A stretch of 64,000 bases of DNA from a virus, in the IMG/VR virus record IMGVR_UViG_3300032605_002499, positions 1-64,000 of that record; one strand, given 5' to 3'. Positions 1-18,464 of the stretch are shown here, one piece after another. How positions within the stretch are numbered: the stretch's first letter is position 1; each line of letters opens with the position of its first letter. The translations under genes were made by a program, and so were the position numbers. Below the pieces are notes generated by a model. The model was not told the origin of the DNA. It did no database searches and saw only the letters and a list, made by a program, of their open reading frames with translations.

Positions 1-891
1 ATGAGTTCTAACAACAAATTTAAAGAAGTGTTAGGTTGTAAATATCCAATAGTAGCCATGGCTATGAATCAAGTATCCGATATTAAATTAGCAAAAGCTG
101 TTCGATATGCTGGTGGCATTCCTAGCCTATCTGTGTTCAACTACGGTATCGAAATTGACTTAGCTAAAATGGAAGAAGATTTTATTGTGTATCAACAAGA
201 ATTCAACGACAGTAAATTGTTGTTTAGTATTAGCTTAAACGAATTAGTTCTAGATAAGATATTGAATATTATAATAAAGTATAAAATTGAATTTATTGAA
301 CTTATATTAGATTCCGATGGTGCTGATACTTTATTGATTTCAGATGCTTTATCAAAATTAAAAGCTAACAATATTAAAGTGTTTGTAAAATGTTTAGGTA
401 TTAAGGATATTCGGACAGATGTAGATGGATTCATACTTAAAGGAGTGAACGGAGCTGGTCGAGGGTACAACGACCTCACTGAACTATTTGGCATTATAAA
501 AGATAAATGTCCAAATGCTTATATCATTGTTTCTGGTGGCATCGGTACCGCCGAGCAAGTTAAGTATTTTATAGATAACGGTGCGCTAGCTGTTGGTCTC
601 GGCACAGTATTAGCAGCTTCAGAAGAGAGTCGAATTTCAAACGAAACTAAACTTAAATTTATCGAATCTTCGTCTGCTGATATCACCAGATTCGACCAAG
701 GCGCACGACAAAATTCGCTAGTCTTTAGAAAATTAGATAACGAAGATTTTAATCATACTGCTGGATTAAAGATAGGCATAAAAAATCCTAACTATGGTCA
801 TGTATTTGTTGGAACGTCTATTGATAACATTACTACTATCAAATCTGTAGCCGATATACTACAAGAACTTACTGCTACATTAGAATTATGA
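1..891 (+). CDS. Nitronate monooxygenase-like FMN enzyme
   Basis: A 296-residue TIM-barrel flavoprotein of the nitronate monooxygenase (2-nitropropane dioxygenase) type. The N-terminus has the family pattern YPIVAMAMNQVSD, followed by AKAVRYAGGIPSLS. The C-terminal half has the phosphate-binding signature VSGGIGTAEQ and then GALAVGLGTVLAASEES. Family members oxidise alkyl nitronates with FMN; some relatives act as enoyl reductases. The motif that normally carries the active-site histidine (AGGHxG) reads GAGRG here, so the substrate may differ. The ATG is the first base of the window, so a longer N-terminus cannot be excluded. Its stop overlaps the ATG of the PP-loop gene by four bases, which suggests translational coupling. 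Fold confident, substrate unknown. Confidence 0.72.
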   Translation: MSSNNKFKEVLGCKYPIVAMAMNQVSDIKLAKAVRYAGGIPSLSVFNYGIEIDLAKMEEDFIVYQQEFNDSKLLFSISLNELVLDKILNIIIKYKIEFIELILDSDGADTLLISDALSKLKANNIKVFVKCLGIKDIRTDVDGFILKGVNGAGRGYNDLTELFGIIKDKCPNAYIIVSGGIGTAEQVKYFIDNGALAVGLGTVLAASEESRISNETKLKFIESSSADITRFDQGARQNSLVFRKLDNEDFNHTAGLKIGIKNPNYGHVFVGTSIDNITTIKSVADILQELTATLEL

Positions 892-2045
892 TTATTAACA
901 GCTTTTATGAAGTAGATGGTATCAAGTTTGAATCTAAAATTCGTGCTTGCTTATTTGCGGCATCAGTTAACAAAGAAGTTAAATGGAATTTTAATCGAGA
1001 ATTTTTTGCCGCATACGACTGGACTAAGGAACCCGAAAAAACTTTAGACCAGTTATATGACGAACGCACCAGGAATCTAAGAGAAAAGTACGATTACCTG
1101 ATACTAAGTTATAGCGGTGGATCAGATAGTCACAACATTTTAATGAGTTTTATTCGCCAAGGATTACATATCGATGAAATTGTTGTTAACCATATGTCAA
1201 CAGCATGGGATAAATTTGTTGTATTAGATCCTAAACAAAAAGCTAGTTGGAATACCGGAGCCGAACATCAATTACAAACTATACCTCGTTTAAAAGAAGT
1301 AGCACATCTTATTCCAAGAACTAAAATAACTATATTAGATTTAACCGAAAATTTATTCGATGCTTTTACTTCGTATGGAGATGCTAGCTGGGTGTTAGAC
1401 CGTAAAGAAGGATTAAATCCTCTTAATGTAACAAGATATAATTATTCATACTTTAAAGATGTTAGAAAACAATTTGATAAAGCACACAAAGTAGCTATGG
1501 TGGTTGGTATCGACAAACCCAGAACTGTTATCGAAAACAATAATCTTCATATGTACTTTACTGATAAAGGCGTTAATATAGTACCGATTGACGATAGTTT
1601 TAAAGATTACACAAATTCAGCGTTGGAGTTTTTCTACTGGAGCCCAGATGCCGTAGATATTTTATGTAAACAATGCCATGTAATTAAACGGTTCTTAGAA
1701 GCTAATCCACAGTATCAAGAAATTTGGCATCGTAAAAATTTAAGTTCTGACACTTGGCGACTAATACAAGAACCAATGATTAAACCAGTAATATATTCTA
1801 ATTGGGACCAATCATGGTTTCAAACTGATAAATCAACTAGTGACTGGCATAGTGAATTTGATACTTGGTTTACTTCAGGATATAAAGACCACGCCGCACA
1901 CAAAATTTGGCAAGAGGGACTTGATTACGTTACAAAAAACGCAACCAAGTTTTTAAAATACAAAGACGATGGTACCCCGGATGGCTTACAATTTTTTATA
2001 CAACATTACAAAATTGGGCCAATGAATACTATTAATCGTCAATAG
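888..2045 (+). CDS. PP-loop ATP pyrophosphatase (asparagine synthase-like)
   Basis: A 385-residue protein with the PP-loop signature SGGSDS at residues 76-81, preceded by a hydrophobic strand (YLILSY). This motif binds ATP in N-type ATP pyrophosphatases, which adenylate a carboxyl, amide or carbonyl carbon for attack by nitrogen or sulphur. There is no N-terminal glutamine amidotransferase domain of the asparagine synthetase type, so any ammonia would have to come from elsewhere. It is longer than, and only distantly similar to, the two other PP-loop proteins in this island (3139-4065 and 5475-6392). It is coupled to the upstream flavoenzyme by an ATGA overlap. Its 3' end overlaps the convergent DUF2061 gene by 14 bases. 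The substrate cannot be predicted. Confidence 0.72.
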   Translation: MIINSFYEVDGIKFESKIRACLFAASVNKEVKWNFNREFFAAYDWTKEPEKTLDQLYDERTRNLREKYDYLILSYSGGSDSHNILMSFIRQGLHIDEIVVNHMSTAWDKFVVLDPKQKASWNTGAEHQLQTIPRLKEVAHLIPRTKITILDLTENLFDAFTSYGDASWVLDRKEGLNPLNVTRYNYSYFKDVRKQFDKAHKVAMVVGIDKPRTVIENNNLHMYFTDKGVNIVPIDDSFKDYTNSALEFFYWSPDAVDILCKQCHVIKRFLEANPQYQEIWHRKNLSSDTWRLIQEPMIKPVIYSNWDQSWFQTDKSTSDWHSEFDTWFTSGYKDHAAHKIWQEGLDYVTKNATKFLKYKDDGTPDGLQFFIQHYKIGPMNTINRQ

Positions 2046-2271
2046 TTTCTACTTTACCCCAATTAGACTTATTCCAAGCTCTTTCGTGTAAGTAGTAGAT
2101 GGCACTATTAACAACGGTAGTGATTCCAACTAAGCCAGCGGCTTTTGCCAAACTACCTGTAGTAGCATACCCAATAATGAAATATTGAATAGATAAGATA
2201 ATGCGCCAAGTAATAACTTTGCCCAAACTGCGTGGGATTCGTTCTTGAAATTTAATTTTAAATGTGTCCAT
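2032..2271 (-). CDS. DUF2061 small membrane protein
   Basis: A 79-residue protein matching the DUF2061 pattern: a basic N-terminus with RSLGKVITWRII, two hydrophobic helices (about residues 22-40 and 44-60), and the closing motif YYLHERAWNKSNWG. The family is a small predicted inner-membrane protein of unknown biochemical role, found in many bacteria and in some phage metabolic islands. It stands alone on the minus strand between two plus-strand genes, and its 3' end overlaps the PP-loop gene. The family call is confident; the function is not known. Confidence 0.8.
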   Translation of the reverse strand: MDTFKIKFQERIPRSLGKVITWRIILSIQYFIIGYATTGSLAKAAGLVGITTVVNSAIYYLHERAWNKSNWGKVETIDD

Positions 2272-2303
2272 ACTCTATTTACATTAGCTACAATAGGTGC
2301 TAA

Positions 2304-2311
2304 AATAAATA
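2304..2311 (+). promoter_or_regulatory. Putative T4-type late promoter
   Basis: The octamer AATAAATA matches seven of eight positions of the T4 late promoter TATAAATA. It lies only four bases before the ATG of the Rieske gene. By T4 spacing the transcript would start at or within the start codon. Confidence 0.45.
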
Positions 2312-2315
2312 CATT

Positions 2316-3158
2316 ATGATATTCAATAAACCTCCAAAAATACTAGCCCATAAATCAGTACTATCTGCCCAAAATTTTGTTACTCCAGAATATATTTTAA
2401 ATAATAATCAAACAGATGTAAACTTGTTCCATCGGTTATGTCCACATAGAATGTATCCGTTAGCGAACCCGGGTGAATTTGTAGAGAATATTGTATGTAA
2501 GTTTCACGGGTTTGAATGGGATAAAGATGGCAAGCCGCTTAACAACGACCGTAACATCGGATGCGGTAAGGCTCAGATCGGAAAGTCTGGATTAGTGTTT
2601 AAAGATTTTGTTGAGCCAGATCATTACTGGGTTAACGACCTTGCTAAAGAAACAAATTTAGAATTTAGTCACGCCAACAACGGAAAAAGTTCTGGCAGCT
2701 GGCTATGGATGATGGAAATTCAAGCAGATTTGTTACATATTCGTAAAGGCGAAGATGTAGTACACCCAGCTCTTGCCGAAGTTACTAATTTAGATGAAGT
2801 AGGCATGGAGCAAGGCGACGGCTGGATATTACAAACTTGTTCAACTGGCTGGTGGTTGTTTATATACCCGTATGTATTTGTTGAATATAGTCCTGGTTGT
2901 TTATCTGTTAACTATACTATACCAGATGACGCAAATAATGAGTTTGGATTTAGCTGGATGACACAATTCTATTATGACCCAGAAACATTGCCTTCTAAGC
3001 GAGTAGAATTTGAAACTTTAGAAGATGTATTCCTTGAAGATGTCGAAACTATCGAATTACAAAAAGGAAAATATTTCCCGTTAATGAAAACAGTGAATCG
3101 ATTAGAGGACCACTGTATTCACTTTGGGCAATGGGTCACTAAGAACCGATCCGATTAA
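2316..3158 (+). CDS. Rieske-type non-haem iron oxygenase
   Basis: A 280-residue protein. The N-terminal Rieske [2Fe-2S] centre is clear: C42-x-H44, 16 residues, then C61-x2-H64, within CPHRMYPLANPG and CKFHGFEWD. The C-terminal catalytic domain offers a mononuclear iron site at D138, H141 and H150, with a possible acidic ligand in the later stretch EDVETIELQKG. Such oxygenases hydroxylate or demethylate small organic substrates using electrons from a reductase; no reductase or ferredoxin is in this window, so host partners are implied. The iron histidines are spaced H-x8-H rather than the common H-x4-H. A late-promoter motif sits directly upstream, and the 3' end overlaps the convergent PP-loop gene by 20 bases. 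The class is confident, the substrate is not. Confidence 0.85.
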   Translation: MIFNKPPKILAHKSVLSAQNFVTPEYILNNNQTDVNLFHRLCPHRMYPLANPGEFVENIVCKFHGFEWDKDGKPLNNDRNIGCGKAQIGKSGLVFKDFVEPDHYWVNDLAKETNLEFSHANNGKSSGSWLWMMEIQADLLHIRKGEDVVHPALAEVTNLDEVGMEQGDGWILQTCSTGWWLFIYPYVFVEYSPGCLSVNYTIPDDANNEFGFSWMTQFYYDPETLPSKRVEFETLEDVFLEDVETIELQKGKYFPLMKTVNRLEDHCIHFGQWVTKNRSD

Positions 3159-4065
3159 GCAACTCTTCTTCTGAAAAAATATAAGTTTTATCTGTAACAA
3201 TTCCACGAATATATTTTTTGCCAAAGTCTAACATAAATGGCTGTACATCGGGCTTAGATTTATCGGGCTGTGGACCTTCGAATCCTATTAGCTTTTGTCT
3301 TAAATCTAAATCAGGCCAATATTCTTGATGTACTTGTACCTTTGTAGATTCATTAGACAACTTTCCTGGAACTTCGTCATTTAACAGTTTTTGTACAACC
3401 GGTAATTTAAAATAAGATACAATTACTTCGGGCGAATATTCGTACCAATCAGTTATACAAGGACGATCTATAGTTTTATGATATACCGCCCAATGATGAC
3501 ATTTTTCATCTAACTCAAATACCCAAGGATATTTTTGCGACATATCTCTACTTCTTCTTCGAATATACGGATTTCCACTTCCTATAATAGGCAAACCATC
3601 ACAATATTCCGTTAATTTCATATGTGGTATCCACCCAGAAGCCGAAGCAAATACTTTTTGTTGTATGTCATATGCTTCGTTTTCAAAAAACTTTTGTAAA
3701 TTAAAATCTATTATTTTAGGTGTAACATTTAACTTATCGCAAGACTTAATTGCTTGTGTGTACTCTGGCAAGTTGTAATCGTTTTCGTATTTAAAAATGT
3801 AAACATTAATTGGAATGCCAAGATCCTTGTAAACCCGCAATATAATTTCACTATCAACACCGCCAGAAAATAATAAATCGAGAGGACCCGAAAAGGTATC
3901 CCTAATAACTCGGCCGTTCTCTAGCAATTCCTCGTAATAACTTTTTACAGGACGATCAATTGTATTTCTAAGAACTAATTCAAATTTTGCTGTAGGATGT
4001 AGTTTAGGGCCATATTCAGGGCCATCGTCGTATGTCCAAGCAAACCAATTATTTTTATAAAACAT
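3139..4065 (-). CDS. PP-loop ATP pyrophosphatase, paralogue of 5475-6392
   Basis: A 308-residue protein with the PP-loop SGGVDS at residues 67-72 in the context LDLLFSGGVDSEIILR. It is clearly homologous to the protein at 5475-6392: both have an F/YEEEL-like helix before the loop, then SGGxDSEI, then FENNYN or YENDYN, then IIDFN followed by FF. The fold is that of N-type ATP pyrophosphatases such as asparagine synthase C-terminal domains and sugar amidotransferases. It lies 3' of a GNAT-like gene with an 11-base overlap, mirroring the order PP-loop then GNAT on the other side of the desaturase. I infer ATP-dependent amide or amidine formation, with low certainty about substrate. Confidence 0.72.
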   Translation of the reverse strand: MFYKNNWFAWTYDDGPEYGPKLHPTAKFELVLRNTIDRPVKSYYEELLENGRVIRDTFSGPLDLLFSGGVDSEIILRVYKDLGIPINVYIFKYENDYNLPEYTQAIKSCDKLNVTPKIIDFNLQKFFENEAYDIQQKVFASASGWIPHMKLTEYCDGLPIIGSGNPYIRRRSRDMSQKYPWVFELDEKCHHWAVYHKTIDRPCITDWYEYSPEVIVSYFKLPVVQKLLNDEVPGKLSNESTKVQVHQEYWPDLDLRQKLIGFEGPQPDKSKPDVQPFMLDFGKKYIRGIVTDKTYIFSEEELLNRIGS

Positions 4066-4630
4066 ATTTTTTCATATTCCTATTCCAACAATCTTGACCC
4101 GCATCAGTCAAATAATGTAACATAACCCATTGCTTCATACTTTCAGGATCATCTACTAAGCAAGGCCCGTTAATAGCATATTTGCTTGGCTCCATTACAA
4201 AATCAACTTTACTGTTAACTTTAATTAACTTTAAATATTCTTCAAACCCAAGCAAATTAGACTCTCTACTAATAAATACACAGTCTAATCCAATTAGTTT
4301 TGCTTTTGCTAGCTGTAACGGTAAGCAATAAGTAGTGTTGAGAAATTTGGCTCCGCTAGTAAACTTTCCCGTATGTCTGTAATCAGGATGTATCCACATT
4401 CTAGTACTAACTCTGCCAATACCTTTACCCCACCAATCACTATTGACTTGTAAGGCACTAAAGCATATAATTGCATTATCAATCACTACCGCAGGAAACG
4501 AAACAAAATCTTGTGGTTCCAATCCGATATAATTATATTTCAATTCATCGGTTGTTGTCAACACATATTTTTGAAATTGATCCCACAAAGTTTTATCAAA
4601 AGAAGTAGCAAGGTCAACTATTTTAATCAT
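4055..4630 (-). CDS. GNAT-like acyltransferase
   Basis: A 191-residue protein that looks like a GCN5-related N-acyltransferase: a central beta strand (IICFSALQV) leads into GIGRVSTRMWIHPDYRHTGKF, the position where the family binds acyl-CoA, although the usual Q/RxxGxG/A loop is degenerate. The family moves an acetyl or acyl group from CoA to an amine. It is the first gene of a two-gene minus-strand unit with the PP-loop protein. A reverse AGTAAATA late-promoter motif ends seven bases before the ATG. A second GNAT-like protein is paired with a PP-loop protein at 6389-6988. The fold call is moderate and the acceptor is unknown. Confidence 0.55.
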   Translation of the reverse strand: MIKIVDLATSFDKTLWDQFQKYVLTTTDELKYNYIGLEPQDFVSFPAVVIDNAIICFSALQVNSDWWGKGIGRVSTRMWIHPDYRHTGKFTSGAKFLNTTYCLPLQLAKAKLIGLDCVFISRESNLLGFEEYLKLIKVNSKVDFVMEPSKYAINGPCLVDDPESMKQWVMLHYLTDAGQDCWNRNMKKYVL

Positions 4631-4637
4631 GGTGTGA

Positions 4638-4651
4638 TATTTACTTAAATA
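4638..4651. promoter_or_regulatory. Overlapping divergent late promoter motifs
   Basis: The 26-base gap between divergent genes holds two late-promoter-like octamers that share bases: AGTAAATA on the minus strand (4645-4638), seven bases before the GNAT ATG, and CTTAAATA on the plus strand (4644-4651), five bases before the desaturase ATG. Both would give nearly leaderless mRNA. Confidence 0.45.
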
Positions 4652-4656
4652 TAGAT

Positions 4657-5475
4657 ATGCCTAAAACAAATTCCTTCCTTTATTATGTATTATATCCAAT
4701 TCACGCTGTTGCCTGGTTTGGCACACTTGCTTACTTAATATTTTTTAACTTTACATGGCTAAATGCCTTAGAAGTATTAATTGGGTGGATCTTAATTGAA
4801 GGATTAGGCGTAGCCGTTGGACTACATCGTTATGTAAGTCATCGTGCTATCGAATTACGATGGGGATTAAAGCCAATTATACTTTGGTTATCCTGTTTAA
4901 GTTTACAAGGTAGTCCATTAGGGTGGGCAGCCATACACCGGGGCAGCCATCACAGATACTCCGACACAGATAAAGACGCTCACACACCTACTAAAGGGTG
5001 GTGGTATGCTTGGCATAGTTGGTTATACGACTGGGATCAATATTTCAATCCTAAGTTTGCTATAGATTTACTTAAAGATCCTATGCACGTTTGGATTGCT
5101 AAACATTATAACTGGATTGTATTAGGTACTTACTTAATTGTTGGTCTTATTTCTTGGCAGTTGTTATTATTTGGTTTTATTGTTCCTGCGGCACTGAGCT
5201 TGTATATGGAAAGCAATATTAATGTATTTTGCCACACTCCAGAATTTGGTTATAGAAATTTTGAAACCAAAGATCAAAGTAGAAATGTTCCATTACTTGC
5301 TTGGATTACTTGGGGTCAAGGTTGGCACAACAATCATCACGAAAAAGCAAGTGCCTATGACTTTGGAACTACTGTAAGTGGTAACAAAAAAGAATGGGAT
5401 TCAAGTTTATTCTTTGTACCTTTGATTGCTACTAAAGAAAGTAGACAAAAAATATTTGCTGATCGCAAGGGCTAA
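4657..5475 (+). CDS. Membrane fatty-acyl desaturase (delta-9 type)
   Basis: A 272-residue integral membrane di-iron desaturase. All three histidine boxes are present: HRYVSH at 57-62, HRGSHH at 94-99 and HNNHH at 224-228. Pairs of hydrophobic helices surround them (about residues 12-52 and 150-185). The order and spacing match the acyl-CoA/acyl-lipid delta-9 desaturase family, which introduces a cis double bond using oxygen and electrons from a ferredoxin or cytochrome. It probably acts in the host inner membrane, on lipid or on an acyl intermediate of this island. It is the first gene of a six-gene plus-strand operon in which every junction overlaps. Family confident; the regiochemistry is inferred. 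Confidence 0.88.
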   Translation: MPKTNSFLYYVLYPIHAVAWFGTLAYLIFFNFTWLNALEVLIGWILIEGLGVAVGLHRYVSHRAIELRWGLKPIILWLSCLSLQGSPLGWAAIHRGSHHRYSDTDKDAHTPTKGWWYAWHSWLYDWDQYFNPKFAIDLLKDPMHVWIAKHYNWIVLGTYLIVGLISWQLLLFGFIVPAALSLYMESNINVFCHTPEFGYRNFETKDQSRNVPLLAWITWGQGWHNNHHEKASAYDFGTTVSGNKKEWDSSLFFVPLIATKESRQKIFADRKG

Positions 5476-6392
5476 TGTATTTTACATATCAGAATCATTT
5501 AAAATACACAATCGGTGGACGAGAGTATGGTTACCGAGAAACTCCTGTTGAGAAATTTGTAGTTTCGTTAGGTGCGGTTGACCCAGACCAGTATCGCACA
5601 AGTTCTTTTGAAGAAGAATTACACAGAACTGCTCATTTAGTACGAGAAGATTTTGGTAAAGATCTTATACTATTTTTATCAGGCGGCACCGATAGCGAAA
5701 TTGTACTGCGTAATTTTATACACAACGGATTTAAACCACAATGTGCTGTAATTAGATTTGAAAATAACTACAATGCTAGCGAAGTTGCTGAAGCAGAAGC
5801 TATTGCTAGAGAATTAGATGTTAAACTTCATATTATAGATTTTAATGTACATGAATTTTTCTTTTCAGGCGAAGCTACTGAGTTTGGCGAGCAAATTCAA
5901 AGCACTCAGCTAACCTATATTATGGTTTATAAAAATATATTAAATTTAGGACAACCAGCTGTTATGGGCGGTGAAGCCGGAGTAACAAGACAAGTTGAAC
6001 CCGCAGGTAGTTACTGGTATTATGCGTTTCGAGAAAATGAAGATGCTAGTGCTATGCGATTTAGTTTAAAGTATAATCTTCCATTAGTTAACGAATGGTA
6101 TAGCTATACCCCCGAATTACTATTATATTACTTAGAATCAGACGGTATTAAAAAATTAGTAACAGACAAATATAACTATAAACTAACAGCAGCATCAAGT
6201 AAAAATGCTATACTAGAAAAAATGTATTCACAATTTAGAAAAAAAGAAAAGAAACATGGTTTTGAAAGTTTATTAGCATTCAATGGCCAAGCATATGAAG
6301 ATATTGGGTTCGACCAAGTTAAAAGATTAGAGTTTAGCTTAGATGGTGTGCCATACGACTTAGCATTAAAACAATTAAGAGGCGAAATATGA
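5475..6392 (+). CDS. PP-loop ATP pyrophosphatase, paralogue of 3139-4065
   Basis: A 305-residue protein with SGGTDS at residues 69-74 inside LILFLSGGTDSEIVLR, the ATP-binding PP-loop. Downstream it shares FENNYN and IIDFN-x3-FF with the minus-strand paralogue. No glutaminase domain is present. The first base of its ATG is the last base of the desaturase stop (TAATG), and its own stop overlaps the next ATG (ATGA), so it is translationally coupled on both sides. Pairing with a GNAT-like protein and with 2-oxoglutarate oxygenases suggests amide-bond or amidine chemistry on an amino-acid or amino-sugar substrate. That is inference from context only. Confidence 0.72.
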   Translation: MYFTYQNHLKYTIGGREYGYRETPVEKFVVSLGAVDPDQYRTSSFEEELHRTAHLVREDFGKDLILFLSGGTDSEIVLRNFIHNGFKPQCAVIRFENNYNASEVAEAEAIARELDVKLHIIDFNVHEFFFSGEATEFGEQIQSTQLTYIMVYKNILNLGQPAVMGGEAGVTRQVEPAGSYWYYAFRENEDASAMRFSLKYNLPLVNEWYSYTPELLLYYLESDGIKKLVTDKYNYKLTAASSKNAILEKMYSQFRKKEKKHGFESLLAFNGQAYEDIGFDQVKRLEFSLDGVPYDLALKQLRGEI

Positions 6393-11133: not shown

Positions 11134-12440
11134 TTTTTAGCATTGCTTTCAACATTTTTCAATACATCCGATAACCAAGGAATATAATCTTCTAATTTTT
11201 GATTTCTAATCTTGTCGATGCCTTCGATAACTCTTTTTGTATCTGGCAAATATTGACTCATATCGCCAGCGTTCATAAAATCTACAATAGGACCAATATA
11301 GCTCTTAATAAATGATCTCGGAGATTCATCCATGTATTTTTGATACAGAGCTGTAATTTCTTGTTTTGTTTCTTGCGGTAACACTTGTAAATTAAACCAG
11401 GGCGGTCCAACTAAACGATGCCAGTATAGTCTTCGATTTCTTCCGCCAAATTTTTGAAAGGGTTGAGCATAAAACCAATCTAATGTTTCTAAAAAATGTT
11501 TTACATTCAATATGCTTACAGTAAAATTAGTTGTACACAGTACATTTGTTAAATCTGAACTATCTAACTCTTTTATATTTGCTTCGATAACTTCCCAGTC
11601 TGATGGATAGCGAACATAATGCGCCATATCACCTATACCATCAATACTAAAACAAACTATTACATGGGCAAAATGTCGCCATTGCTCCAACAAATTTTTG
11701 TTAAGAGTTGTTCCGTTAGTATTGTATTCAAGTGTAATATTTTTTGCGTAATCGTGTTCAATACAATAGTCTAATATTTCATAATGTTTTTTATTAAGCA
11801 AAGGGTCGCCGCCCGTAAAATAAATTCTATCAATAGTAGACAATGTTTCTTCTAAATTTTTGCCAAATTGTTCACTAGCATAATATTGAAAATCATCACT
11901 TTTAATTTTGTATACATTATTCTTTTTTTCAATTTCGTATGATTTAGATATGTTTTGTACACGGAATTCAGTAATACCAGCGTCATACATATCCTCGATC
12001 CACAATGAACTATCTGCTGGACCGCAACTACGACACTTTAAATTACAAAGATTTCCCAATCTTAAATCTAAATAGTTCAATGGATATTCTTTAGTATCAA
12101 TTACTCCACTTTTATCTTCAGAGTTAACAATTTGTTCTAAGGTATTACCGTAAATTTTTTGTTGATTTTGTCTTTTTGAAAGGATACCTAGTTCTTCTTC
12201 ATCCCAACATAATTTACATAAAGGATGTTTTTCCCCGGCCATCATACTACGCCTAAGGTCAACATACATTGGATGATTTCTAACTTCTTCAATATCTTTT
12301 GTTAACACATTTTCTGACACACCATCGGTAATTAATCGACCAGCGGCACTATACACGCACTGACAACAAATTCCATAATCACCATTCTGTAAAATAGCAA
12401 GATGATTCCAAGGGATAGTACATATAGTATCTTTACTCAC
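11130..12440 (-). CDS. Radical SAM protein, paralogue of 9829-11133
   Basis: A 436-residue radical SAM enzyme with C132-x3-C136-x2-C139 in NLCNLKCRSCG and the SAM-binding strand YFTGGDPL. It has the same N-terminal auxiliary cysteine pattern as its neighbour (C7, C25, C26, C75, C78: TIPWN, ICCQC, CKLC). The two proteins align over most of their length, so they arose by duplication. Separate retention suggests two successive steps or two substrates. It overlaps the genes on both sides (4 and 8 bases). Superfamily confident, reaction unknown. Confidence 0.82.
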   Translation of the reverse strand: MSKDTICTIPWNHLAILQNGDYGICCQCVYSAAGRLITDGVSENVLTKDIEEVRNHPMYVDLRRSMMAGEKHPLCKLCWDEEELGILSKRQNQQKIYGNTLEQIVNSEDKSGVIDTKEYPLNYLDLRLGNLCNLKCRSCGPADSSLWIEDMYDAGITEFRVQNISKSYEIEKKNNVYKIKSDDFQYYASEQFGKNLEETLSTIDRIYFTGGDPLLNKKHYEILDYCIEHDYAKNITLEYNTNGTTLNKNLLEQWRHFAHVIVCFSIDGIGDMAHYVRYPSDWEVIEANIKELDSSDLTNVLCTTNFTVSILNVKHFLETLDWFYAQPFQKFGGRNRRLYWHRLVGPPWFNLQVLPQETKQEITALYQKYMDESPRSFIKSYIGPIVDFMNAGDMSQYLPDTKRVIEGIDKIRNQKLEDYIPWLSDVLKNVESNAKK

Positions 12441-13389
12441 CTGGATATTCCTTTGTGCTCATGATATCAAAATTACAATGGCACATTGATTTAGTACAAC
12501 GCACCGGATCTGTGGGTAAATTTAAATTTGGATCAGCAATGTTGCCTACCAAGTCGCCTTCTTTACACCACCCACGGAATATAGCCCCTCGTTGATCCAC
12601 GATTAACTGTTCTACTCCCGCATAACAATCCCACCCAGACCAATCATTAGCTTTTTCATTAATAAAACGATGAGCACTAACTGCCAAAGAAGTATCATTG
12701 GCATATAACATTTTCATAGCGCCGCGATAGTATTCAAACTCTTTAGTAAATTTTATATATTTGCTAATTAATTCATGTTGATTATCGATAATTTGTTTTT
12801 GTTCAGGAGTATAATCATATAATACTTCGCCAAAGTCATGTATTAATGGCTGAAGCGCCATTGAAATATTTCCAAGATCTTTTATCTTGTCCGCTATATC
12901 ATAGCAATAGTCAAACTTTTCTGGACTCATCATAATATTAACATGAGTTCTTACATCATTATTTAATTCCTTAACCACTTCGATAAAGTGATCAGCATCG
13001 CCGAATTCTGGGTGAAAACTTAAACATATATGATCAAAATATTGTTTGTTTTCTTTCCAATAACGCAATGTTCTTGATCCATTAGAGATTAATCCTACTT
13101 TAACACCTTGCTCTGTACAATATTGGCAAATCTCGATAAAATGTTTATACAATGTAACTTCACCGCCAGTAAATTCAAAATATAATTTTTTGTTAGGGTG
13201 TGTTGCTTTAACTTTTGAAATAAAATTTTTGATAGTATCCGGAGTAGGCCATGGATTTGTTCCATTATGTAAATTTTCTGGACAGTAGCTACAACTAAAA
13301 TTACAAGTATTGCCCAAACACCAATTAACTACAAACCAATCAGTATTCGTTTCTTTAGCGTGAACTAATTTATAATATTTTTTCTTCAT
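12433..13389 (-). CDS. Radical SAM protein with C-terminal Cys cluster
   Basis: A 318-residue radical SAM enzyme. The cluster motif is C29-x3-C33-x2-C36 (TCNFSCSYCPE), followed by FEFTGGEVTLY. The last 80 residues contain several cysteines (DCYAG, GWCKEG, RCTKSMCHC), which resemble a SPASM-type auxiliary cluster site. It is of a different subtype from the next two genes, where the auxiliary cysteines lie at the N-terminus. As first gene of the minus-strand unit it has its own AATAAATA promoter motif and a TTAGGA ribosome-binding site five bases before the ATG. Confidence 0.82.
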   Translation of the reverse strand: MKKKYYKLVHAKETNTDWFVVNWCLGNTCNFSCSYCPENLHNGTNPWPTPDTIKNFISKVKATHPNKKLYFEFTGGEVTLYKHFIEICQYCTEQGVKVGLISNGSRTLRYWKENKQYFDHICLSFHPEFGDADHFIEVVKELNNDVRTHVNIMMSPEKFDYCYDIADKIKDLGNISMALQPLIHDFGEVLYDYTPEQKQIIDNQHELISKYIKFTKEFEYYRGAMKMLYANDTSLAVSAHRFINEKANDWSGWDCYAGVEQLIVDQRGAIFRGWCKEGDLVGNIADPNLNLPTDPVRCTKSMCHCNFDIMSTKEYPGE

Positions 13390-13418: not shown

Positions 13419-13440
13419 GTACTACGGATGGGGGAGTAAA

Positions 13441-13458: not shown

Positions 13459-13469
13459 AACACTTATTT

Positions 13470-14624
13470 ATGCTAATAAGTATGTATCTAATGGTAAATT
13501 TTGTAATCAAACCTGTAAGTTTTTATCGAGATGTTAGTACCAAACTTGCTAATCTATCTTGTAAAACACCTTTTGGATTTTATGATATTTTAGGAAACGG
13601 TGATGTAAGTGCTTGTTGTTGTACTTGGTTACCCGAAATTGTTGGCAATGTTCTTACTGATTCTGCTGATGAAATTATTAACAATCCCACAAGATTGAAA
13701 ATACAAGAAGGCATGAAGCAAAGCAAGTTTGATTATTGTAATGACCAATGTCCTGAATTAAATTTAATACTAACATCTGGTGTCAAACGAAATCATTGGA
13801 TTGTGCCCAGCAACGAATTAGAAACAAGACTCAAACAATCTACATTAGTACATATTGGGTTAAATTATGACCAAAGCTGTAATTTACAATGTCCTAGCTG
13901 TCGTAATGAGTTTATATATTGGAATCCAAAAGATAATACATACGAAAGTAATCGTATCGGTACGATTCATGAAAAAACAAAAGCATTAGTTAATAGATTA
14001 CTTGAAATACATCATGATCAGCTAGTTACTATAGGCATAACTTCATCAGGAGATGCGTTCGCAAGTGTATTTTATTGGGATTATCTTTGCGAATTAGCAA
14101 ATAATCCTATTCCAGAAAATCTTAGAATAAACTTAAAAACCAACGGCTTACTAATGACCAAAGAAAGATGGATGGAAATAGAACCGTTGTTAAAACATAT
14201 TTCTTATCTAGATGTTAGCATAGATGCTGCTACAGAAGAAACATACAGCAAAGTAAGAAAAAATGGTATTTTTAAAAAATTAATAAAAAATTTAGAAGAC
14301 CTTGATGAGTTAGTATTCAATAAAAAATTTCCTAATTTAATCCATTGGCAAAATAATTTTATAGTTCAAGAAGATAACTTTAAAGAACTAAAACAATTTG
14401 TCGAATACGAAACATCATATAAATCTAAACACGAAATAAACATTACTTGTATAGCACAATGGGGTCATATGACCGACGAACAATTTAAATCTATGGCTGT
14501 ATGGCAAGTGGATCATCCGCATCATCAAGAGTTATTAGATATATTGAAAGATCCTATTTTTAGACATCCATGGTTATGGTTAGGTAATTTAGCATCAATG
14601 CTTCCAAAACAGGAAAACATATGA
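13470..14624 (+). CDS. Radical SAM protein with N-terminal Cys cluster
   Basis: A radical SAM enzyme of up to 384 residues with C137-x3-C141-x2-C144 in QSCNLQCPSCRNEF. N-terminal cysteines (C31, C49-C51, C90, C94) again suggest an auxiliary cluster ahead of the barrel, as in the two minus-strand paralogues. The SAM-binding strand reads GITSSGDAF, a divergent version of the GGE motif. The start is uncertain: ATGs at 13470, 13482 and 13491 are all in frame, none has a good ribosome-binding site, and conserved sequence only begins after the third. It overlaps the methyltransferase-like gene by four bases. Confidence 0.78.
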   Translation: MLISMYLMVNFVIKPVSFYRDVSTKLANLSCKTPFGFYDILGNGDVSACCCTWLPEIVGNVLTDSADEIINNPTRLKIQEGMKQSKFDYCNDQCPELNLILTSGVKRNHWIVPSNELETRLKQSTLVHIGLNYDQSCNLQCPSCRNEFIYWNPKDNTYESNRIGTIHEKTKALVNRLLEIHHDQLVTIGITSSGDAFASVFYWDYLCELANNPIPENLRINLKTNGLLMTKERWMEIEPLLKHISYLDVSIDAATEETYSKVRKNGIFKKLIKNLEDLDELVFNKKFPNLIHWQNNFIVQEDNFKELKQFVEYETSYKSKHEINITCIAQWGHMTDEQFKSMAVWQVDHPHHQELLDILKDPIFRHPWLWLGNLASMLPKQENI

Positions 14625-15163
14625 TTAACAAAGATGCTTTTTCGAATGGACAAGTTGATAGTAAACTTTGGCTATGCCAGGAATTAGAATCTATCGGATG
14701 GCATAGTAAACTAACTCGCGTATACGGCGGTTGGTACGGTATACTTGGGTTTTTATTATTAAGCAGACAAAACTTTAGAGTGGACCGTATTGAAAGTTAT
14801 GATTTAGATCCTACTTGCGAATCTATTGCTGATATGATTAACGAAAATTGGGTAATTAAAGAATGGCAGTTTAAAGCCCAAACCGGAGACTGTAATCAAG
14901 TATTACCTGGTAATCCAGATTTAATCATTAACACTAGTACTGAACATTTTGAAACTATGGATTGGTTTAACAATATTCCAAACGGCACAAGAGTTATATT
15001 ACAAGGCAACAATATGCCGCACGATGATCATGTGGTACACTCTGCTACTATCGATGATTTTGTCGCACACTATCCACTTTCAGAAATTATGTATCAAGGC
15101 GAGTTACGATTTGTATATCCTGAATGGAAGTTTACTAGATACATGGTAATCGGTATTAAATGA
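14621..15163 (+). CDS. SAM-dependent methyltransferase-like protein
   Basis: A 180-residue Rossmann-type protein. VYGGWYGILGFLL at about 34-46 fits the glycine-rich SAM loop, RIESYDLDP at 56-64 ends in the acidic residue that would bind the ribose, and LIINTSTEHF at 101-110 fits the catalytic strand. The domain is near the minimum size for a class I methyltransferase, with a short C-terminus. It is coupled to the upstream radical SAM gene (ATGA overlap), so it may act on the same substrate. It ends one base before the convergent glycosyltransferase gene. Confidence 0.6.
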   Translation: MINKDAFSNGQVDSKLWLCQELESIGWHSKLTRVYGGWYGILGFLLLSRQNFRVDRIESYDLDPTCESIADMINENWVIKEWQFKAQTGDCNQVLPGNPDLIINTSTEHFETMDWFNNIPNGTRVILQGNNMPHDDHVVHSATIDDFVAHYPLSEIMYQGELRFVYPEWKFTRYMVIGIK

Positions 15164-16102
15164 TTACCACCCCTCGAGTTTACGAATAACATCTAACTCG
15201 CGAACCATAATTCCTTTGTTGTGCCAGTCACTGCGATAGTGACTTTTAAAGAATTTACTAGCATTTTCGTCTAGCATAGCAATAGGCAAATCTAATTGAT
15301 TCATTAAATCTGGCGCTAATCTTGCCGCGATTTGTTCTGGATCATGCCCGTTGATAGTTTCGTATATTGCTTTAAGAGCATCAAAGTTTTGAACTTCTTT
15401 ATAATCCCAAGTAGGATTAATCATTAACATATAGGTACCCATTCTAGCACCAAGTATAGACCATATTCCATTTTCTACATCTCTGCCAACATTTTGCCAT
15501 ATTGTTAAATGATCTAAATTACGATTGTTAACTCTTTGTTTAAATTCTGTAATATTAGGTTTACTGCCACGGTCAAGACACATCTTAACGCCTTCGCGGA
15601 ATCCTGCTCGCCATGCTTGGAAAGGTGTAGCGTTGGGATATGTTGTACTATAACAATCGTACATAGCAATATAATTAGGATAAAAACAAAACTCCACATC
15701 ATTTTCTGCTGTGCCATCGCTTGCTTCGTGTGTACGCATATTGTAAATAAAATCTTTAGTCCAGCAACTTAATCCACCGTTGCCATACATAAGTCCATTA
15801 ATGTGATTACGGGCTCTCCAACGAAATACACAATTTTCGTCTCGTTCTTCCAATCGTAAAGAAAGATCAAAAAAGTTATCATCGGGAATATTATCACCGT
15901 CAATTAAAATAAATCGATCCGTAAGACTGACATCAGCCGCGGCCTTATGTGCGGCGTCTGATCCTTTGATACCATCTACTCTCATAGCCCATGGTACCAT
16001 ATTTTTAATTTTTACCCAATTTTCTTCTTTATTAGGTTCATCGTAACTTAGATATACACAATCTAATTCTGCTATGTCAATATGATTCAACGAAAACTCC
16101 AT
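15164..16102 (-). CDS. GT-A-type glycosyltransferase-like protein
   Basis: A 312-residue protein with a nucleotide-sugar transferase look: a Rossmann-like start (LDCVYLSYDEPN), then FILIDGDNIPDD, where D68-G-D70 is the metal-binding DxD motif. Similar proteins are frequent in T4-like cyanophages. They are thought to glycosylate DNA, virion proteins or host surface glycans, but their acceptors are unproven. It is the last gene of a six-gene minus-strand chain running from 18458. Family moderate; acceptor unknown. Confidence 0.62.
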   Translation of the reverse strand: MEFSLNHIDIAELDCVYLSYDEPNKEENWVKIKNMVPWAMRVDGIKGSDAAHKAAADVSLTDRFILIDGDNIPDDNFFDLSLRLEERDENCVFRWRARNHINGLMYGNGGLSCWTKDFIYNMRTHEASDGTAENDVEFCFYPNYIAMYDCYSTTYPNATPFQAWRAGFREGVKMCLDRGSKPNITEFKQRVNNRNLDHLTIWQNVGRDVENGIWSILGARMGTYMLMINPTWDYKEVQNFDALKAIYETINGHDPEQIAARLAPDLMNQLDLPIAMLDENASKFFKSHYRSDWHNKGIMVRELDVIRKLEGW

Positions 16103-16404
16103 TTAATATTTGGTTCTGTATTCTTAACTACAATACTAATATCCTGCGGATGACACGGTGTGCCGCCTTTGGTAGGATACAATTTTTTAACTATTGCTGT
16201 ATCAAGAAGTACAATACTGTTATTAATTACCTTAAAATGCTTAGGTGGATTAATATATACTTCCCATGGTATATCTATATATTTCCCAGGCAAATCTTCT
16301 TGACTAAAAAATAATGGCGCTCCTTGCTCGTCGTAGTACAACCTGTGTATTTTAACAACTGGGGAGACGGGCTCCAACGCGGCAAAGAATTCGTCTTCAG
16401 TCAT
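16087..16404 (-). CDS. Conserved hypothetical phage protein
   Basis: A 105-residue soluble protein beginning MTEDEFFAALEPV. It has beta-rich stretches (KIHRLYYDEQGAPL, YIDIPWEVYINP) and no known motif. The sequence looks like a small conserved protein of T4-like marine phages, an impression I cannot verify here. It overlaps both neighbours in the glycosyltransferase operon, by 8 and 16 bases. Function unknown. Confidence 0.6.
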   Translation of the reverse strand: MTEDEFFAALEPVSPVVKIHRLYYDEQGAPLFFSQEDLPGKYIDIPWEVYINPPKHFKVINNSIVLLDTAIVKKLYPTKGGTPCHPQDISIVVKNTEPNIKWSFR

Positions 16405-16657
16405 CGTTACTCTTTTGATTATTACGGCGCTCTTGTACCGTCAATTTATCTTTACCTTTAACTGTTTCGTTATATCGCGGATTGCGACACATATTACAAT
16501 CAGGCTGGCCACAGTCCATGGCATGATGTTTAGCGTAACGGTGCGGTTCGTCGATGGGATTACCGTGCGCTTTAGCAATCTTTAATTGTTTCCTAATTGC
16601 GTTCCATACTTTTTGTAAACGCTTGCTATGCTTAAATTTATCTTCGTCTTTACTCAT
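16397..16657 (-). CDS. Small protein with Cys-His cluster
   Basis: An 86-residue basic protein. Near the middle, HRYAKHHAMDCGQPDCNMC holds C-x4-C-x2-C preceded by three histidines, a likely zinc site, followed by RNPRYNE. I chose the ATG at 16657 rather than the in-frame ATG at 16666, because AAAGGA lies at a good distance before it and the overlap with the upstream gene is then only eight bases. It resembles small conserved proteins of marine T4-like phages. Function unknown; a nucleic-acid-binding or structural zinc role is only a guess. Confidence 0.6.
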   Translation of the reverse strand: MSKDEDKFKHSKRLQKVWNAIRKQLKIAKAHGNPIDEPHRYAKHHAMDCGQPDCNMCRNPRYNETVKGKDKLTVQERRNNQKSNDD

Positions 16658-17372
16658 TTTCAACATCCTTTATGTGATAATGTACAAAACCCCATTGTGC
16701 TACTGTATTAATCCTAACTCCTGGATTAGTGTGTTCTAATATTAACTCTTTACTCCAATCATTTGATACAATGGGTATCATATGTTTTTTCATATGAACG
16801 ATAGTAGGACCAGAAGGTAAAGTTACATTCTCTGGCCCTATTAGAATGGCTGCCATTCCATATACTACATCAGTGGTAGGTATTTCGTCGGGAAATTTTA
16901 ATAAAGGTTTATAACTTTCCCAATGTTCAAACATATCACGCACTAATCTAAAAAATTCTTCAGCTGTGTCACTAACTTCCCAATATGTAATAGCATTATA
17001 CACATCAGGCAAATTGTTATTATCGAATATTTTACGATATGTTCTTGCCTTGCCAGGTTGATCATAAAAATCTCTACAACCTTGACTAATAACCACATCA
17101 CGATTAGCAAACAAGTCCCACCAATGATCGATTGGGCTGGCGCACCACATATCTGCTTCCAACTTAATTGTTTTTTTATACGGGCTTGCTTGGTAACATT
17201 GCCAGTCATTGGCAAAGCCACCAAGATTGCCATGCGGTAACATATCTTCTGTTAATATTGTAATATTAACATCGGGATGCCACTGTAAAATACTATCCTT
17301 TAATTTATTGGCGCATTTAACATATACCTCGCCTATCGCCGGAATTAAATATCCTTGTTCAACTAGCAACAA
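16650..17372 (-). CDS. Glycosyltransferase-like protein (GT-A fold)
   Basis: A 240-residue protein with an N-terminal alternating beta/alpha region (NITILTEDMLP) and KTIKLEADMW, where E72-A-D74 sits at the position of a DxD metal motif. Later stretches (ISQGCRDFYD, NAITYWEVSDTAEEFF) follow the pattern of GT8-like transferases that use nucleotide sugars. It overlaps the upstream glycosyltransferase-like gene by 14 bases and the small Cys-His protein by 8. Two such proteins in series suggest successive sugar additions. Acceptor unknown. Confidence 0.5.
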   Translation of the reverse strand: MLLVEQGYLIPAIGEVYVKCANKLKDSILQWHPDVNITILTEDMLPHGNLGGFANDWQCYQASPYKKTIKLEADMWCASPIDHWWDLFANRDVVISQGCRDFYDQPGKARTYRKIFDNNNLPDVYNAITYWEVSDTAEEFFRLVRDMFEHWESYKPLLKFPDEIPTTDVVYGMAAILIGPENVTLPSGPTIVHMKKHMIPIVSNDWSKELILEHTNPGVRINTVAQWGFVHYHIKDVENE

Positions 17373-18153
17373 TGTCTCCTAAATGTTTTTTACCCATAGC
17401 ATGAAAGTCCTGTGACAAAGTTATATAGCGTGGTTTTTGATCACTAGTTAAAAAATCTACACGATATTTGTCTTGTTCTAATTGTGTTAATTTGTGTGCC
17501 GGAGTTACTGACGCAAGTCCCCACGGAATATCTGTATGATTAAGGGTATGCCCATTTACTATACCTAAGGCAATGCTTAACGCAAAATCATTACGATATG
17601 TTGAACGAGCAATACCATATAAATTTCTATAGTGTTGCCAATTATTTTTTATCATAGTCATACAGTCAAAAATCATTTTTGCTTCAGCAGACCTACGAAA
17701 CATCATTATTGTCGCCCACCACATAGGCATATTAAAATTACCGAAGTTGTTAAGTTCACTAAAATTATCTTGGTCAACTATATCATATGCTGTTTTGTGC
17801 GCTATAAAGTTTTCTGGCATTGCTATTACTTTTTTTAATTCATCGCTTGCCACTACATAGTCAGCATCTAATACTAATGTTTGCGACCATGGCGACAAAT
17901 TATAAGCATCAGCTCGATTACCATTATACCAAGTTACATTTTCTTCTTGATCATCAAACTTTCTTGAATGGTTACCCTCGGGCGCAGCTTGTATTACTTG
18001 TTCGAAGAAATAATTATTAGGAACTAATTGATTAGTCACTACCGCAACTGGCAAATTTAAATGTCTGCGTATATTTTTTGCTGACCAATTAGCCATAGCT
18101 AGATAATCTATATGTTCATTATTAAAAGCAAAAATTAATACGCCGGTTGTCAT
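17359..18153 (-). CDS. Glycosyltransferase-like protein with DxD motif
   Basis: A 264-residue protein with the start VLIFAFNNEHIDYLAMANWSA and the strand TLVLDADYV, in which D96-A-D98 is the DxD motif of GT-A transferases. It ends in a basic region with DFHAMGKKH. Order and size resemble the neighbouring 240-residue protein, so the two may be distant paralogues. The gene overlaps its upstream neighbour by four bases. Sugar donor and acceptor are not visible in the sequence. Confidence 0.55.
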   Translation of the reverse strand: MTTGVLIFAFNNEHIDYLAMANWSAKNIRRHLNLPVAVVTNQLVPNNYFFEQVIQAAPEGNHSRKFDDQEENVTWYNGNRADAYNLSPWSQTLVLDADYVVASDELKKVIAMPENFIAHKTAYDIVDQDNFSELNNFGNFNMPMWWATIMMFRRSAEAKMIFDCMTMIKNNWQHYRNLYGIARSTYRNDFALSIALGIVNGHTLNHTDIPWGLASVTPAHKLTQLEQDKYRVDFLTSDQKPRYITLSQDFHAMGKKHLGDIVAS

Positions 18154-18458
18154 CTATTTTTATTAAGTTCGTTGTACTCTAATAACCAAGCATCCATTTG
18201 TTCTCGATATCGTTGTTGTGCCAGCATTTTTAATGCGTGAACATTAACTTTGATTGGATTATCATATAAATCAAGTAACACTACTTCGATTTCTGTTTCG
18301 CAAGATTTTAAAAATACAATCAATTCGGGACTAGCTTTAAACATTCCGCCATTATAAGCAAATATCAATTTACCTTGATATTTTTCTTTGAGAGTTCGTT
18401 TGGCCGCTTCGTGTTCAAAACGGCTACGGCCGTGAGCAACTAATTTGTCAGTATCCAT
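18150..18458 (-). CDS. Conserved hypothetical phage protein
   Basis: A 102-residue protein, first in the glycosyltransferase chain. It contains KLIFAYNGGMFKASPELIVFL, a distinctive stretch, and a C-terminal charged helix. No catalytic motif is evident. It overlaps the next gene by four bases. A sigma70-like promoter (TTTACT, 17 bases, TATAAT) lies directly upstream and would start transcription at the ATG. Function unknown; it may be regulatory or an adaptor for the glycosyltransferases. Confidence 0.6.
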   Translation of the reverse strand: MDTDKLVAHGRSRFEHEAAKRTLKEKYQGKLIFAYNGGMFKASPELIVFLKSCETEIEVVLLDLYDNPIKVNVHALKMLAQQRYREQMDAWLLEYNELNKNR

Positions 18459-18464
18459 ACAGTT

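Follow-up and report, generated by a model that had tools for sequence, protein, structure and literature searches.

The island of about 20 enzymes that the initial annotation proposed for positions 1-18458 of the window (the whole stretch of viral DNA analysed here, 64,000 nucleotides) is real, and nearly all of the enzyme families named there are present. In the explanation we favour, held at about even confidence, a T4-like phage carries this island as a tail-linked accessory cluster in which two modules that frequently occur separately are combined. Module A consists of GT1-3, rS1-rS4 and small ORFs beside fibre-type genes. Module B contains a PP-loop synthetase (PP3), two GNAT-like proteins (GNAT-A and GNAT-B) and a membrane desaturase (DES). 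Between positions 1-20000, 44 ORFs of at least 60 aa are listed, and a non-overlapping choice leaves 24 ORFs in 1-18458 with a coding share of 99.1%. These ORFs and the adjoining fibre-like genes are as follows.

1..891, +, NMO-type flavoenzyme, the 3' 296 of 322 aa with the 5' end outside the window (Pfam NMO 45 bits; full copy in contig L010)
888..2045, +, PP1, PP-loop protein with SGGSDS (no Pfam match above cut-off; joined to PP2 and PP3 by profile iteration)
2032..2271, -, DUF2061 membrane protein (Pfam 54.3 bits)
2316..3158, +, Rieske oxygenase (Pfam Rieske 32.6 bits; cluster ligands 7/7)
3139..4065, -, PP2, PP-loop protein with SGGVDS (Pfam QueC 22.2-22.3 bits, cut-off 22)
4055..4630, -, GNAT-A, module B (profile link to the c7 GNAT-like family)
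4657..5475, +, DES, membrane acyl desaturase, module B (Pfam FA_desaturase 59.4 bits)
5475..6392, +, PP3, asparagine-synthetase-type PP-loop synthetase without glutaminase, SGGTDS, module B (AF2 pLDDT 91.6)
6389..6988, +, GNAT-B, module B (AF2 pLDDT 88.6; GNAT fold Z 14.8)
6985..7593, +, AspH, aspartyl/asparaginyl-hydroxylase-like 2OG enzyme (Pfam Asp_Arg_Hydrox 26.9 vs 22.6)
7590..8474, +, TauD-type 2OG oxygenase (Pfam 74.3 bits)
8471..9058, +, U12, no Pfam match, overlapping start/stop; ends the coupled run 4657-9058
9045..9806, -, 2OG-type oxygenase with HxD...H...R (no Pfam match)
9829..11133, -, rS1, twitch-domain radical SAM, module A (NF033640 324.3 bits, cut-off 170)
11130..12440, -, rS2, twitch-domain radical SAM, module A (NF033640 352.1 bits)
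12433..13389, -, rS3, radical SAM without Pfam SPASM match, marker of module A (Pfam 48.8 bits)
13470..14624, +, rS4, radical SAM with N-terminal SPASM match (Pfam)
14621..15163, +, putative methyltransferase-like ORF
15164..16102, -, GT1, candidate glycosyltransferase-like protein, module A (no Pfam match; recurs next to fibre-type genes)
16087..16404, -, U20, module A ORF (synteny)
16397..16666, -, U21, module A ORF (synteny)
16650..17372, -, GT2, GT8-like, module A (GT2/GT3 profile matches glycogenin, E 2.8e-5)
17359..18153, -, GT3, GT8-like, module A (same profile match)
18150..18458, -, U24, module A ORF (synteny)
18541..20788, -, two fibre-like structural genes flanking module A (synteny in rS3 loci)

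Base 1 is not where the island begins: in L010, a near-identical 133 kb contig, it extends ~9 kb further upstream. This segment encodes an epimerase, a GT1-like fusion, a 101-aa ORF, two more PP-loop proteins, DctP, TctC, an amidohydrolase, a GNAT-like protein and finally the complete 322-aa NMO, 296 aa of which fall inside the window. In agreement with the earlier description of adjoining virion genes, baseplate wedge, hub and portal proteins are named by PHROGs downstream of the island; weak PHROG tail-fibre matches are found for 19502-20788 and none for 18541-19488. For the enzymes measured, dN/dS is 0.03-0.15 where computable, indicating purifying selection. As for a RiPP precursor, ORFs of at least 50 aa were considered, and larger ORFs account for 99.1% of 1-18458.

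The three predicted PP-loop proteins are present and belong to one family by profile iteration, with PP1 in a 32-row clade, PP2 in a 16-row set and PP3 in a further set, each holding viral rows only. PP3 (305 aa, PP-loop at residues 69-74) stays under the curated cut-offs (Pfam Asn_synthase 13.8 vs 21; TIGR01536, NCBIfam asn_synth, 15.3 vs 267.1). In the comparison with asparagine synthase that the initial annotation had recommended, the AF2 model of PP3 adopts a PP-loop synthetase-domain fold (ASNS, Z 15.5, 255 aligned, 3.8 Å; AsnB, Z 14.9; beta-lactam synthetase, Z 14.7), with Z scores of 11.4-15.5 across the AsnB family and 10.4 for the next fold. The fold shared by AsnB, beta-lactam synthetase and carbapenam synthetase is matched along almost the full length of the model (Z 13-15.5). 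Unlike these enzymes, with which it shares 11-14% identity, PP3 lacks an N-terminal class II glutaminase domain, for which its 305 aa give no Pfam match. The catalytic lysine/glutamate was not located in an alignment covering the PP-loop part of PP3. QueC (7-cyano-7-deazaguanine synthase) has zinc-binding cysteines, and no Cys occupies an invariant or near-invariant column of the PP-loop alignment (A2); the QueC cut-off is just reached in Pfam (see above) but not in TIGR00364 (22.2 vs 150.3).

Module B is defined by its linkage to PP3 in 32 non-redundant viral loci, fetched with flanks of ~10 kb. Within four genes of PP3, which was taken as near, GNAT-A is found in 29 loci, GNAT-B in 28 and DES in 27, while shuffling the gene order within these loci yields averages of 9.2, 8.2 and 9.3 and maxima of 17, 19 and 17, respectively. 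AspH (12/32) and TauD (8/32) are also found near PP3. In the window, GNAT-A adjoins the coupled run of DES, PP3, GNAT-B, AspH, TauD and U12. Both GNAT-like assignments hold: GNAT-B, which has no Pfam match, by the fold of its AF2 model, and GNAT-A, weak in Pfam (13.6 vs 27), by its profile link to the c7 family (E 2.4e-14 for that one comparison). The three-box desaturase exceeds its Pfam cut-off, its profile matches acyl-CoA desaturase 1 (stearoyl-CoA desaturase; E 1.2e-21), and its His boxes are kept in 60/60 aligned members.

The other assignments fared similarly. Rieske and NMO are above Pfam cut-offs, and the three Fe(II)/2OG-type proteins are recovered, with the metal-binding H, D and H kept among clustered relatives of TauD (16/16), AspH (22/22) and 9045-9806 (14/14, as H167xD169...H224...R237). 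The catalytic residues are thus retained among these relatives. The four radical SAM proteins each carry one CxxxCxxC and pass the Pfam Radical_SAM cut-off; under NF033640 (N_Twi_rSAM), rS4 (51.7) and rS3 (19.7) fall below the threshold that rS1 and rS2 exceed. The methyltransferase-like label of 14621-15163 was not borne out, as neither Pfam nor NCBIfam gives a meaningful family match.

The earlier remark that no carrier protein is present is right for the window, where the c40 carrier-protein profile finds no ACP (PF00550), but wrong for the family. An ACP is a called ORF near PP3 in 11/32 loci, directly upstream of it in 10, and is fused to GNAT-A in one more (L124); in the other 21 loci no ORF near PP3 was called as an ACP. 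A six-frame search adds ACPs in L111 and L113 as well as the L124 fusion frame. Pfam PP-binding is above cut-off in the three phage ACP proteins tested, and the GNAT match of the fusion is below cut-off.

Based on the gene set, its linkage, the kept motifs, the predicted folds of PP3 and GNAT-B, the ACP and its fusion in relatives, and the bacterial counterparts, we give about an even chance to module B building a small N-acylated, unsaturated, hydroxylated amide on a carrier. An acyl group would be held as a thioester on ACP or CoA, the ACP being phage-encoded in a third of relatives and presumably the host's in the window phage. DES would desaturate the carrier-bound acyl group, the 2OG enzymes would hydroxylate it, GNAT-A and/or GNAT-B would move it to an amine, and PP3 would adenylate a carboxylate and couple it to an amine or ammonia as an amide. 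Conserved motifs and folds do not by themselves reveal the reaction. Somewhat more tentatively, module B could represent an undescribed class of carrier-protein-dependent pathway, in which many phages and scattered bacteria make the same N-acyl amide class by means of a stearoyl-CoA-desaturase-like enzyme, a pair of GNATs and a glutaminase-free AsnB-type synthetase. JamABC is an ACP-dependent membrane desaturase system with a membrane desaturase and a small carrier protein; in contrast, the module B kit combines its desaturase with an AsnB-type synthetase and two GNATs, and no acyl-AMP ligase was noticed in it. Judging by position, the likeliest guess is that the product changes the infected cell's envelope, either a lipid or a polymer at its surface, perhaps to counter superinfection.

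Module A matches the content described for the host recognition cluster (HRC) of pelagi- and cyanomyophages (Zaragoza-Solas et al. 2020, PMC7029224). In the part of that account considered here, the HRC is a hypervariable island in the T4-like structural region with fibre genes, GT8-type glycosyltransferases and radical SAM cassettes, and the window island likewise has GT8-type glycosyltransferases (GT1 as a candidate) and radical SAM genes. The HRC sits between VrlC and the neck gene gp14; in the window, a 5004-aa ORF is found past the fibre-like genes. The same part of the account (PMC7029224) describes a stearoyl-CoA desaturase and a 2OG protein unique to a freshwater group and a core aspartyl/asparaginyl hydroxylase; it mentions neither the PP-loop family nor a carrier protein and contains no such kit. 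The island resembles this fibre-linked cluster of marine T4-like phages but joins two modules. The cultured Pelagibacter phage Mosig EXVC030M (MT647606) is annotated with an FA desaturase, two AspH-type proteins, one TauD-type protein, a GNAT, three MoaA-like genes, an epimerase and an ArnB-like aminotransferase beside fibre genes; tblastn with PP1, PP2, PP3, one divergent phage member and one bacterial member matched nothing in the phages collection, and no PP-loop relative is thus seen in Mosig. No description of the module B kit was found in the open-access literature searched.

Amide formation, acylation and hydroxylation, as first interpreted, and desaturation as well, are likely the chemistry of the island, but a single product of all ~20 enzymes is not supported. 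Under that reading, which we consider unlikely, PP-loop proteins would amidate sugars like WbpG/PseA, other enzymes would acylate or hydroxylate them, and the GTs would assemble one modified glycan on the host surface or virion. The upstream epimerase, the Mosig annotation, the GTs and deoxysugar genes known in such clusters (PMC7029224, in the part considered) and the co-occurrence of both modules in the window and its closest relatives are consistent with it. So are the GT8-like GT2 and GT3, whose profile matches glycogenin over its first third; GT2 and GT3, like GT1, have no Pfam match. Of the three glycosyltransferases first named, two hold as GT8-like and GT1 is still a candidate. Against it, PP1/2/3-family genes occur in only 6 of the 80 rS3 stretches kept from 92 confirmed viral ones, and the 74 fetched stretches without them contain GNAT-A once, DES once and GNAT-B never. 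GT1 and GT2/3 appear in 4/32 PP3 stretches, each closely related to the window; the real number must be five or more because L010, the window's own stretch, ends short of its GTs, and the 10 kb flanks may miss more. GT1-3 homologues occur in 14/78 PP-scan stretches and were not found in the fetched bacterial ones. With the rS3-side gene sets mostly apart and the bacterial stretches lacking GT1-3 homologues, a glycan product is therefore not required. The PP3-side evidence for separation is weaker, since flanks are ~10 kb and rS3-cluster genes occur in 10/32 PP3 stretches.

Fibre/tail homologues lie beside module A in 49/80 rS3 stretches, which, together with the resemblance of GT2/3 to protein-glycosylating glycogenin, would suit modification of phage structural proteins, in which side chains of the fibres would be the targets of radical SAM/SPASM enzymes, AspH-type hydroxylases, GNATs and glycogenin-like GTs. 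We consider this reading quite unlikely; for module B, such homologues occur in 6/78 PP-scan stretches (with flanks of up to 10 kb), and bacteria have the kit too. Module B making a diffusible signal or inhibitor by a natural-product-like pathway that bacteria have as well, for phage-phage or phage-host competition, is somewhat improbable: the ACP, compact bacterial clusters, P450-, cupin-, sulfotransferase- and B12-radical-SAM-like genes seen in related islands on inspection of their sequences, and a Variovorax desaturase that similarly lies near ACP- and oxygenase-like ORFs point to it, but no NRPS/PKS or exporter was noticed in an incidental view of module B's own genes. Loose auxiliary genes taken from hosts one at a time, with no common pathway, are disfavoured as very improbable. 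Gene content around the PP3 core does vary much between relatives, but core linkage far above the shuffles, the viral-only sets of PP1, PP2 and PP3 and purifying selection argue against scattered single acquisitions.

The usual view of biosynthetic genes in phages is that each is an isolated auxiliary gene. The multi-enzyme kit of module B, by comparison, stays together in ~30 distinct contigs of uncultured phages, a third of which add a carrier protein, and Duganella sacchari has a chromosomal counterpart in which PP, GNAT-B and DES are adjacent. Removing genes and applying mass spectrometry can therefore directly test what enzyme-rich T4-like islands make. Among other bacterial loci, L209 encodes PP, DES (59% identical), GNAT-B, ACP and DES, with a B12-radical SAM by Pfam, and L207, L213 and L215 hold partial sets; a desaturase is present in only 4/18 bacterial PP stretches. 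Finally, DctP, TctC and what looks like a symporter are encoded in some islands, and these fit uptake or other roles better than the N-acyl amide scheme.

A PP-loop synthetase (PP3), two GNAT-type proteins (GNAT-A and GNAT-B) and a membrane desaturase (DES), together referred to as module B, lie close together in most of the PP3 loci recovered. The window contains PP3 and two further PP-loop proteins, with U12 downstream:

888-2045, PP-loop protein PP1
3139-4065, minus strand, PP-loop protein PP2
5475-6392, PP-loop synthetase PP3
8471-9058, U12

PP3 orthologues were set off from other family members by a gap in profile score (309 vs 175), and 48 were reduced to 32 by dropping those more than 95% identical. 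In these 32 loci, five of which lie close to an end of the fetched stretch, the genes at most four positions from PP3 include GNAT-A in 29, GNAT-B in 28, DES in 27, AspH in 12, an acyl carrier protein (ACP) in 11 and TauD in eight. Shuffles of gene order within each locus, in which relatedness is ignored, gave means of 9.2, 8.2, 9.3 and 3.3 for GNAT-A, GNAT-B, DES and ACP, with maxima of 17, 19, 17 and 9, respectively. Among 74 loci that surround the radical SAM gene rS3 and carry no PP1/2/3-family gene, GNAT-A and DES each occur once, and GNAT-B and ACP are absent. The GNAT-A label unites the window's GNATa with protein cluster c7, and GNAT-B unites GNATb with c42, both by profile comparison, with E-values that each hold for a single comparison. 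At 4657-9058 of the window, the order is DES-PP3-GNAT-B-AspH-TauD-U12, with overlapping stop and start codons. No description of module B was found in the open-access literature searched and, as far as these searches show, it is undescribed.

The initial annotation had assigned about 20 tailoring enzymes of the island (1-18458) to one joint pathway. The grouping it noticed was right, and is more coherent than was visible at that stage. A single pathway is, however, probably not the explanation, and this reading was not accepted as stated because module B and module A (the glycosyltransferase-like proteins GT1-3, the radical SAM proteins rS1-rS4 and small ORFs beside fibre-type genes) are mostly separate when seen from rS3. 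Eighty rS3 loci were obtained by scanning viral contigs, with GT1-3 homologues in 54/80, fibre or tail homologues in 49/80 and at least two genes of the rS1/rS2/rS4 cluster in 49/80. A PP1/2/3-family gene is present in 6/80 (7/80 with PP-loop clusters c26, c47 and c134 included), but the flanks extend no further than 10 kb and contig ends truncate many of the stretches, such that absence from a stretch is not absence from the phage. The gene clusters, obtained by the Louvain method on blastp matches, merge PP2 with PP3, GT2 with GT3, and rS1, rS2 and rS4. A PP-family scan of viral contigs returned at least 80 loci; the matches listed are a sample, 78 of them new, and among these 78 a DES-cluster gene occurs in 50, GNAT-A in 52, GNAT-B in 41, GT1-3 in 14 and fibre or tail genes in six. 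Seen from PP3, the comparison has limits: in the 32 PP3 stretches, rS3-cluster genes occur in 10 and rS1/2/4-cluster genes in seven. Glycosyltransferases occur in four, all close relatives of the window, whose own stretch ends before its glycosyltransferases. Module A is known in kind: pelagi- and cyanomyophages are reported to have this kind of content in their host recognition cluster (PMC7029224).

Loss of catalytic residues, which the initial annotation had named as evidence against its proposal, is not observed in aligned cluster members (no more than 60 full-length members were taken from any cluster; for DES, 60 of 67). The histidine boxes of DES are retained in 60/60 members, the PP-loop in 60/60 members of the merged PP2/PP3 cluster, the rS3 cysteines in 59/59 or 60/60, and the metal ligands of the three 2OG-type proteins in 16/16, 22/22 and 14/14. 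For the measurable enzymes, with relatives at 60-97% identity, dN/dS is 0.03-0.15 (NG86; dS often saturated); the small ORFs U20 and U24 have higher values, up to 0.47, and NMO, DUF2061, U12, rS1 and rS4 have no usable relative.

The predicted model of PP3 (pLDDT of 91.6) aligns near full length in VIA-align with asparagine synthetase (Z of 15.5) and E. coli AsnB (14.9), followed by beta-lactam synthetase (14.7), carbapenam synthetase (13.6) and TsnB9 (11.4). After these comes LarE (Z of 10.4), which together with NadE and TtuA (Z of 8-10.4) has the PP-loop core in common with PP3. Foldseek also places beta-lactam synthetase and AsnB first (TM of 0.3-0.5); VIA-align was used for the fold comparison. 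In its predicted model, PP3 shares the synthetase fold of the asparagine synthetase family but lacks the glutaminase domain. Most of the asparagine-synthetase-type enzymes listed adenylate a carboxylate and form an amide. Based on its predicted model, PP3 may likewise be a carboxylate-adenylating amide maker; a common fold is no proof of reaction. The GNAT-B model has a GNAT fold (Z of 14.8), and the DES profile finds stearoyl-CoA desaturase (E of 1.2e-21). DNA or nucleoside modification may be a role; a QueC-type deazaguanine modification was rejected since QueC scores are weak, no cysteine is conserved and the predicted fold is AsnB-type. A comparison of the PP3 profile with PDB sequences was set aside: its top match, to gp120, looks like chance (E of 0.00099), and the other leading rows are the PP-loop proteins MJ0690 (0.003), NadE (0.011) and QueC (0.038).

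The carrier ORF in 11/32 PP3 loci encodes 72-82 residues with a DSL site and lies directly upstream of PP3 in ten. A six-frame search adds a carrier in L111, L113 and L124, the last fused to GNAT-A in a single 255-residue frame, whose GNAT match is under the Pfam cut-off. All three phage carrier proteins tested score above the cut-off for Pfam PP-binding. In the window and its relatives L002-L009, profile and six-frame searches found no carrier protein; the window's phage would thus have to use a carrier or CoA of its host.

A PP-loop tree was built from 92 viral rows and 22 bacterial ones. In it, PP1, PP2 and PP3 fall in supported viral-only sets of 32 (100/100), 16 and 18 rows, respectively, and the window's three paralogues are thus old, distinct lineages. 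The virus/bacterium label needs seven changes on this tree, at least four of them forced, and PP-loop genes have probably been exchanged between viruses and bacteria several times. The placement of B_L177_PP and its neighbour is unsure because both form long branches.

Bacterial counterparts were also observed. When the GTDB species collection was scanned by pattern for the PP3 subfamily, 48 stretches came up, none related, and a DES scan of the collection gave five loci. In Duganella sacchari (Burkholderiales), PP, GNAT-B and DES are adjacent, DES having 55% identity with a phage copy, and are followed by a second PP-loop gene (45%) and one for a cupin (48.5%). This kit lies just after flagellar genes (by inspection; sigma factor by Pfam), and AspH- and TauD-like genes, the latter with an internal stop, lie ~17 kb from DES past large ORFs that look RHS-like by eye. 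In the family of genome G008, the PP profile matches 10/294 genomes at E ≤ 0.001, two of them strongly; the other eight loci appear by sequence to be seven AsnB-like and one TilS-like. L178, from the MAG G009, carries a c26-type PP-loop gene along with GNAT-A, DctP, 2OG-like genes and two desaturases, and the PP1/2/3 profile finds nothing in G009. Across the phylum to which G009 belongs, the PP3 profile matches 26/290 genomes, one of them seven times; the weaker matches may be AsnB or other PP-loop proteins. Eighteen bacterial stretches were then fetched, 17 from this phylum and one from G041. Of these, L209 combines PP, GNAT-B and ACP with two desaturases (one 59% identical); L207, L213 and L215 have a desaturase, PP and further members; and no desaturase was seen in the other 14. 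GT1-3 are never the best blastp match of any ORF in the 18.

One bacterial genome has seven PP3-profile matches, spread over several sites of its 2.66 Mb contig (G308:C1; L217-L220). On a contig binned as Methylococcaceae, a desaturase fragment (L181:4575-4991) is 93.6% identical to the L117 phage copy, which may hint at the host or mean that the bin contains a phage contig. CAKLQH020000002.1 (L226), named Acinetobacter phage MD-2021a, carries trpB, trpC, btuB and BaeSR in the part inspected and looks like a chromosome.

The IMG/VR record holding the window has 64,771 bases. Ten proteins encoded downstream of 18541 were compared with PHROGs, which identified baseplate wedge, hub and portal proteins among them. 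The portal has matches in 2447 phage records, including many T4-like phages, at less than 60% identity and with diverse hosts. Based on these names and matches, the phage is called T4-like. The island comprises 24 chosen ORFs at a coding density of 99.1%. ORFs were selected greedily by length, except in L177, L184, L185 and L188, for which a GC-based caller was used. Family searches bear out most of the families initially listed; GT1, the methyltransferase-like ORF and 9045-9806 are without a Pfam hit. In a near-identical 133 kb contig (L010), the island continues for ~9 kb upstream of base 1. This extension encodes an epimerase, a GT1-like fusion, two additional PP-loop proteins, the binding proteins DctP and TctC, and an amidohydrolase. 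The five PP-loop proteins of this contig form one family after profile iteration. Its DctP-type solute-binding protein (L010:5542-6498) is 42% identical to the bacterial copy in L178 (12392-13411; both by Pfam); neither has a signal peptide by eye, and they are perhaps reused inside the cell. No Rfam family was matched in 1-20000 and no tRNA was found, and promoter-like sites (93 vs 89.9 in shuffles) and terminators (7 vs 9.1) give no signal.

Among the virion genes, 22317-37331 is one 5004-residue ORF, perhaps a giant VrlC-like baseplate protein. Four GIY-YIG homing endonuclease-like ORFs are interspersed with virion genes, one with a PHROG homing-endonuclease match (20840-21514) and three recognized by eye (50215-50982, 53795-54223 and 60553-61287). 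Adjacent ORFs of 717 and 802 residues at 55963-60534 belong to the same cluster, a possible duplication, and the former has an endolysin PHROG match close to its C-terminus. The T4 late-promoter-like word TATAAATA has one copy in 64 kb (13.4 expected from shuffles), at 55949-55956 just upstream of the ORF at 55963, and looks avoided elsewhere.
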